From Planctomycetia bacterium (lineage in GTDB: Bacteria; Planctomycetota; Planctomycetia; Pirellulales; UBA1268): 42,222 nt of DNA. Below the pieces are notes generated by a model. The model ran no database searches, was not told the origin of the DNA, and saw nothing but the letters and a program-made list of their open reading frames with translations. How positions within the stretch are numbered: position 1 is the first letter of the stretch; every line of letters starts with the position of its first letter. Where the stretch lies: positions 4,210 to 46,431 of the forward strand of contig JAPLNQ010000295.1 in the NCBI GenBank assembly GCA_026401075.1. The letters are read 5' to 3'. Positions 1,431 to 9,531 of this stretch are shown one piece after another. Position numbers and translations under genes: made by a program.

Positions 1431-4400
1431 ATGGCAACTCGCGCCGTCCGCCGTCTCCAGCCCACCGAGATCCGTCACTTCGGCAGCCGCCGCGCCAGCC
1501 ACGCCATTCCCGACCTGACCGAGATCCAGACGCGGTTTTACGACGCGTTTCTGCAGTACGACGTGCCGTCGAACAAGCGCAAGGATCATGGCATCGAGGG
1601 CGTGCTCCGTGAGATCTTTCCGATCGAGAGCTACGACAAGACAGTCAAGATCGAGTACCTGCGGTACGAACTTGGCAAGCCGCGATACGATCCAGATGAA
1701 TGCCGGCAGCTGCGGCTGACCTATGGCCGCCCGCTCCGGGTCTCGTTGCGGCTCACTCGCGAACAGCCCATCGAGGAAGAGGTCTATCTCGGTGACATCC
1801 CCATCATGCTGGGCGGTGGCGAGTTCATCATCAACGGTGCCGAAGCAAAACCTATAACTGTCGCATCATTCCCGAGCGTGGCAGCTGGATCGAACTCAAC
1901 GTCTCGAAAAAAGACACCCTGCAGGTACGCATCGATCAGAGCGGCAAGTTTTCCGCACTGACACTCCTGCGGGCGATGGATCCGAAATTCAGCCATGATT
2001 CCGAGATCCTTAAGCTTTTCTATAAGACCACCGTCGAAAAGGTCGCCGGCGGACGAAGCGTGCCGAAACTCGAGGGCCGCATCGCCGTCGACGACATCGT
2101 CTATCCGAAGGGCAGCGAGCGAGCGGGCGAGATCATCGTCGATGCCGGCGTCAAGATCACGCACGACATGGCCGAACTGATCTGCACCTCGGACCTCAAG
2201 GCCGTCGAGGTGATGCAGGAGCAGAAGGTGCCGCTCCTGATGCACAGTCTCAAAGAGGACTCCGACGAGTCGAAGAAACGCACCGGAGTCGCCCCGAGCC
2301 ACGAGGATGCGCTGGTGCGGATTTACCAGCGGCTCCGGCCGGGCAATCCGCCCGCCCTGGACAAGGCGAGGACGCTGTTCGACGAGAAGTTCAAAGACAC
2401 GAACCGGTATCGCCTCGGCCGCGTGGGTCGCTTCCGTATCAACCGTAAGCTCGGGCTCTCGGTGCCAGAAACCGAGATGACGCTCCGGCCGGATGACCTG
2501 ATCGCCGCGTTCAAGTACATGCTGCAGCTCAGCGAGGGCGAGGGCCAGGTGGAGGTCGATGACATCGACCACCTCGGCAACCGCCGCCTGCGCACGATCG
2601 ACGAACTCGCCAGTGATGAACTCCGCAAGGGCTTCCTGAAACTGCGCCGTACGGTGCAGGAGCGGATGAGCCTCAAGGATGTGGCCGAAATGTCGCCCCG
2701 GACGCTCATCAATCCCAAGAGCATCTCCGCTGCGATTGAATACTTCTTCGGCCGCGGCGAGCTCTCACAGGTAGTTGACCAGACGAATCCGCTTTCGATG
2801 CTCACGCACGAACGGCGACTCTCCGCGCTCGGTCCAGGCGGCTTGAACCGCAAGCGAGCGGGCTTCGAGGTGCGCGACGTGCACATCTCGCACTACGGTC
2901 GCATCTGTCCGATCGAAACGCCTGAAGGCACGAATATCGGCCTCATCTCGAGTCTCGCCATCTACTCCGGCGTCGACTCTTACGGCTTTTTGGTCACGCC
3001 GTATCGCAAGGTATCGAAGTGCAAGCTGACTGACGACGTCGTCTGGCTCCGCGCTGACGAGGAGCACGACGCCCATCTTGCGCCGGCCGACGCCACTGTC
3101 GTCGACGGCAGAATCGAGGGAGATACGATCATCGCCCGGTATCGCGGCGACTTCGTGCTCGTGCCTGCCGAGTCGATCGAATACATCGACGTGGCGCCCA
3201 GCCAGATGGTGGGCGTGTCCGCCGGCCTGATTCCGTTCCTTGAGCACGACGACGCCAACCGCGCGTTGATGGGTTCCAACATGCAGCGTCAGGCCGTGCC
3301 GTTGCTGGTGACCGAGCCGCCGATCGTGGGCACGGGGATGGAACGCGACGTGGCAGTCAATTCAGGGCTGCTCGTGCGGGCGGCCAAAAAGGGCGCCGTC
3401 ACATACGTCGACGCCGAATCGATCGAGGTGACTACGGCATCCGGATCCGTCGATGCCTACAAGCTTCGGAAATACGTCGGGCTCAATGAGCGCACGTGCC
3501 AAAACCAAAAGCCGATCGTGCAACTCGGCCAAAAGGTCGATAAGGGCGATGTGCTGGCCGACGGTGCCGCCACCTACAAGGGTGAACTGGCGCTCGGCCG
3601 CAACGTGCTGGTCGGTTTCATGGCGTGGGATGGCTTCAACTTCGAAGACGCCATCATCATCAGCGAGGAACTCGTCGAAGATGACGTCTACACCTCGATC
3701 CACATCGAGGAATACGACATCGAGATCCGCGACACCAAGCTGGGTCGCGAGGAGTTCACGCGGGACATCCCCAACGTCGGCGAGCGTGCGCTGCACAACC
3801 TTGACGAAAGTGGGATCGTCCGGATCGGCACGTATGTACGACCGGGTGACATCCTCGTCGGCAAGGTCTCCCCGAAGAGCAAGACCGAGTTGACGCCTGA
3901 AGAGAAACTCCTGCATGCCATCTTCGGCCGCGCCGGCGAGGACGTGAAGAACGACTCGCTGGAGGTGCCGTCCGGCGTCGAGGGCATCGTGATCGCTGCA
4001 GAGAAGTTCTCCCGGCGAATGAGCCTCTCCGAAGAGGAACGCCGCGAGTTTGAGAAGCAGCTCAAGGAAGCGGAAAACATAGGCAACGCACAGATCGCCG
4101 AGGTGTTTGCGGTGTTGGTCGCGGAACTGGAAAAGGTGCTGCAAAAGCCGCTCACGGCGGCCGACGGCAGCCCGCTCGTTCGCAACCAGGATCACAAGGT
4201 GGTGGCGGAGCGGGCGGCGGCTTTCAAGCTCGAAGACCTCGACATCCGCTCCCCGCAGCGCAAGGCCGACGTTGAGAAACTCCATAAGGCGATGTGGCCT
4301 GCCGTGGATGCCGCGATCGACGCTCGGGATCGCCGACTCAACAGCATGAAGCGTGGCGACGAACTGCGGCCCGGTGTGCTGCAGATGGTGAAGGTCTACG

Positions 4401-5113
4401 TTGCTGCCCGGCGTGTCATTTCAGTCGGCGACAAGATGGCCGGCCGACACGGCAACAAGGGTGTGATCGCAAAGATTCTCCCCAAGGAGGACATGCCCTT
4501 CCTGGCGGACGGAACGCCTGTGCAGATTCTTCTCAATCCTCTCGGCGTGCCCAGCCGCATGAACGTGGGCCAGATCCTGGAAACCCATCTGGGGTGGGCC
4601 GGCATGAAACTCGGCTTCCAGGCCATCACGCCGGTGTTTGATGGTGCCAGTGAAGATGACATCAACGACGTGCTGGTCAAAGCGGGCCTGCCGCGGCACG
4701 GCAAGGCCCAACTCTATGACGGCCGCACGGGCGAAAAGATGGAGCAGGAGACAACCGTCGGCTACATCTACATGCTCAAACTCCATCATCTCGTCGACGA
4801 CAAGGTGCACGCCAGATCGACGGGCCCCTACTCGCTCATCACGCAGCAACCGCTGGGTGGCAAGGCCCGATTCGGCGGTCAGCGTTTTGGCGAGATGGAA
4901 GTCTGGGCATTGGAGGCCTACGGAGCGGCCTACATCCTCCAGGAACTCCTCACCGTCAAGAGCGACGACGTCGAGGGCCGTACCAAGATCTACGAGAGCA
5001 TGGTGAAGGGCGAGAACACGCTCGAGGCTGGCACACCTGCCAGCTTCGACGTGCTGACCAACGAGATTCGTGGCCTGGCCCTCAACATGCAACTGGAAAA
5101 ACGGCGGGTGTGA
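1431..5113 (+). pseudogene. rpoB: RNA polymerase beta subunit, interrupted in this sequence (N-terminal part 1431 to about 1844 in one frame, remainder from about 1844 to 5113 in another)
   Basis: N-terminal fragment ends ...[18 protein letters not shown] in the 1350-1961 ORF. The other frame resumes as [50 protein letters not shown] and continues to 5113. The conserved RVxVSQLHRSPGV block between them is missing. Most likely a local assembly or sequencing deletion rather than a true pseudogene. Confidence 0.93.

Positions 5114-5190: not shown

Positions 5191-9531
<4,341 letters not shown>

Follow-up and report, generated by a model that had tools for sequence, protein, structure and literature searches.

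The rpoB is an essential gene, and its bacterial product, described by the RpoB profile TIGR02013, is read from one continuous open frame and contains the near-invariant SQLHRSPG block in the region of the N-terminal rifampicin cluster. A literature search for precedent of a split rpoB gave nothing relevant. Programmed frameshifting of the dnaX type is recognized by a zero-frame slippery heptamer leading into the right downstream frame, a stimulatory structure and conservation. Local assembly errors are a general problem of uncurated metagenome-assembled genomes (MAGs), are suspected to be most prominent in IDBA-UD assemblies, and 13 of them were reported in one 1.1-Mb genome (Chen et al, 2020; PMC7111523). 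In these cases, a short stretch is lost or unsupported at a join and a wrong protein-coding gene appears in the draft. The rpoB described here resembles them in this respect and differs in that those errors were defined by read support, whereas this one was judged from assembled sequences.

Organization of the rpoB locus and the absent segment

The window, which is the whole stretch of 42,222 nucleotides analysed here, corresponds to bases 4210–46431 of contig C45 (JAPLNQ010000295.1; G000:C45) in a Planctomycetia genome of 4.16 Mb, assembled into 301 contigs with 92.8% completeness and 2.5% contamination. The order rplJ, rplL, rpoB, rpoC is the standard arrangement. The features are as follows.

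Contig 4161–4209: scaffold gap of 49 N, its last N directly before window base 1, the start of rplJ
1–531, + strand: rplJ, adjoining the 49-N scaffold gap
1431–1844, + strand: 5′ part of rpoB, intact, 138 codons from MATRAV... to ...INGAE (TIGR02013 5–136, translation and codon comparison)
1844|1845 (span 1844–1847), + strand: junction with 70 nt absent, no N and a net frame change (alignment with 30 relatives, blast offsets)
1845–1961, + strand: continuation of the 5′ frame past the junction, out of frame with rpoB, up to its stop
1847–5113, + strand: 3′ part of rpoB, intact, 1088 codons plus stop, ending ...LEKRRV (TIGR02013 157–1237)
1907–1913, + strand: A_AAA_AAG heptamer in the 5′ frame, from which a −1 slip enters the 3′ rpoB frame
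5191–9531, + strand: rpoC, intact in a single frame

The RpoB profile matched twice, at its positions 5–136 and 157–1237, on one strand of the same contig and in two overlapping frames, and a continuous open frame across the profile was not found. The 5′ frame is open from the ATG at 1431 to the stop ending at 1961 and the 3′ frame from 1796 to 5113, resulting in an overlap over 1796–1961. The first in-frame ATG of the 3′ frame is at 1976, and a start there would drop 43 more RpoB residues. A sequence-only reading had noticed the interruption and the frame change, with perfect RpoB in both frames, and the split profile match agrees with it. For the 3′ frame this holds except for the S of its SKTYN, which is a codon made by the junction; true RpoB resumes at the K (1847).

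Between the same anchors the window has 117 nt and each of the other four genomes in the genus has 187 nt, and thus exactly 70 nt are absent. This length equals 23 codons, which in the relatives read RVVVSQLHRSPGIDFVADTESSD, plus one base (3n+1), and the loss of this one further base changes the frame. The absent stretch aligns to the segment of E. coli beta starting ERVIVSQLHRSPG. The earlier estimate had been 20–29 missing residues with a length of 3n+1, into which the measured value falls, and the loss of the near-invariant RVxVSQLHRSPG segment was borne out by the alignment with the closest relatives, all of which are intact there. The window rpoB, therefore, encodes the whole bacterial RpoB minus 23 residues, in two frames, but it is frame-broken and without the RVVVSQLHRSPG block, and the SQLHRSPG motif is absent from it.

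The block in relatives and the state of both halves

The block was intact in all 30 aligned relatives, and it was kept in 24 of 24 loci that share the downstream sequence in a GTDB-wide pattern scan. The relatives found by pattern that carry names are nearly all metagenome-assembled Planctomycetaceae or Pirellulales, and several of the names hint at lakes. When 72 genomes of the same GTDB family were searched, the profile match was continuous wherever rpoB had been assembled through this point, except in the source genome. In the wider order, the difference is 67 or 73 nt instead of 70 for some genomes, which have natural codon indels immediately behind the block, and SQLHRSPG is present in all of them. 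A lineage-wide deletion was therefore rejected, as none of the examined relatives is without the block.

Within the source genome, a search of the 301 contigs with a degenerate DNA pattern (SQLHR..PG) did not find the block elsewhere, and the same pattern located the rpoB site in four of four other genomes of the genus. A profile search of the 301 contigs for a second rpoB, which had been suggested together with the original observation, found none; rpoB is single-copy in the genus and in the source assembly. The assembly is 92.8% complete, however, and the part that was not assembled could still contain an intact second rpoB, which is a point against an assembly error.

The dN/dS against the nearest relatives was 0.02–0.035 on both sides of the junction (134 codons upstream and 1088 downstream), and the differences were mostly synonymous; for the 3′ comparisons with L019 and L020 the aligned values were used, owing to a 2-codon indel. 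This strong and equal purifying selection on both halves indicated that neither is decaying. The 3′ part showed 97.2% identity to G002 with zero gaps. Furthermore, the nearest relatives are alike for the two halves (G001 and G002), and the synonymous distances to G001 are 0.43 and 0.49, respectively. An undecayed flanking coding sequence from a single organism, together with a lesion that occurs in no relative (30 relatives, 24 GTDB loci), is the pattern expected from an assembly error.

Assembly context and comparable breaks in other genomes

In a gene-by-gene comparison of ~30 genes, rpoB was the only gene of the window that is frame-split against all three syntenic relatives. Other two-frame matches, at ~24.6 kb and 31.8–32.7 kb, were not counted; each was seen with one relative only and lies in low-identity extensions. 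The contig is a scaffold, and its 49-N gap lies 1.8 kb upstream of the junction. Three relatives have 87, 87 and 89 nt in the interval filled by these 49 N, and this scaffold gap is therefore undersized by ~40 nt. The rpoB junction itself is free of Ns, which speaks against an assembly error.

Comparable breaks of rpoB were observed in other genomes. Planctomycetia bacterium WB5_5_029 (RFVE01000066.1, G091), which is also a MAG and belongs to the same GTDB family, has lost 166 nt from its rpoB (locus L066, G091:C579, ~2865), which is likewise an N-free, frame-changing loss of 3n+1, but at another place in the gene. Among 149 genomes sampled from the phylum, the rpoB of G113 (L070, G113:C151, ~1360–1387) has lost ~88 nt close to the 5′ end, again with the frame changed and no N, and that of G191 contains two NN joins, each with a frame change. 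In many more genomes of the family and the phylum sample, rpoB is truncated at contig ends. That the three measured lesions (70, 166 and ~88 nt) are all 3n+1 is probably due to chance.

Some other irregularities of rpoB were also noted in these genomes. In L089 (G122:C3), a single open frame of 2620 aa covers both rpoB and rpoC, which thus appear to be fused, and neither of the usual strings, SQLHRSPG and [FV][IV][IV]NG, was found there. One genome has two full-length rpoB that are 62% identical on two long contigs (L090 and L091; G178:C2 and C3), representing either a paralogue or contamination. L071 (G135:C43) contains an in-frame stretch of ~820 nt inside rpoB at 4266–5087, from a chimeric contig or an insertion, the translation of which looks like an endonuclease III-type protein, and the rpoB match of L077 (G108:C14) has one in-frame TAG.

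Origin of the junction

The 70-nt gap in rpoB most probably arose from a local error during assembly of the MAG, to which we assign a probability of about 0.95. An assembly deletion had been proposed earlier as the most parsimonious explanation, and it is supported, short of proof, by the intact relatives, the undecayed halves, the single copy, the undersized scaffold gap and the N-free rpoB breaks in other planctomycete genomes. Two rpoB pieces assembled from the same organism would have been joined directly, omitting 70 nt of a highly conserved stretch. Such stretches are near-identical among co-occurring relatives and may tangle the assembly graph, and a 70-nt gap sized at zero would give the same picture as the rpoB junction. 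The join would thus have been made during assembly or scaffolding, outside the cell, with the tangle arising from shared conservation, and the living organism very probably carries an ordinary intact rpoB.

A clean, N-free join between undecayed flanks would also be seen if a very recent 70-nt deletion, present in a minority of cells or in a dead-end lineage as a null mutation or beside an intact second rpoB, had been picked by the assembler. We consider this very unlikely, because the gene is essential, only one copy is seen in the genus and in the source assembly, the loss of a near-invariant block together with a frameshift would be lethal, and a consensus MAG should show the majority form. 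A chimeric join, with each rpoB piece coming from another organism, would be eased by the near-identity of this block in related planctomycetes; however, both halves are nearest to the same two genomes at similar synonymous distances, and synteny runs on at both sides, which leaves a chimera scarcely credible.

The remaining alternative is a functional rpoB, in which either a −1 slip at 1907 gives a beta subunit without the block, or each fragment is made as its own polypeptide and the two then assemble. The overlap of the frames and the correct phase of the heptamer, which stands in the zero frame and leads into the right downstream frame, are in its favour. The downstream fold is nevertheless unremarkable (z = −1.33, with 25 of 200 shuffles as stable), and the relatives read rpoB in one frame with Lys codons varying between AAG and AAA. 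The heptamer consists of ordinary Lys-Lys-Asp (K-K-D) codons, which the relatives carry in their normal frame, some of them as AAAAAAG. Moreover, the fused product would still be without the 23 near-invariant residues and would carry ~21 foreign residues replacing native ones, and the late first ATG of the 3′ frame, with its further loss of 43 residues, also speaks against a functional gene. A programmed frameshift at 1907 was rejected on the grounds that, despite the right phase, the fold is unremarkable and the block is not restored; we judged the heptamer coincidental, and a split or recoded functional rpoB extremely improbable.

A deletion that is both real and tolerated, by means of an unassembled second rpoB or a frameshifted beta without the SQLHRSPG block, would mean a bacterium that lacks a near-invariant part of RNA polymerase, and we give this next to no credence. 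As an artefact, the junction is only a warning that uncurated MAGs serving as species representatives may hide N-free breaks in universal marker genes; phylogenies built on rpoB, or claims that a gene has been lost, would be misled by such silent breaks.
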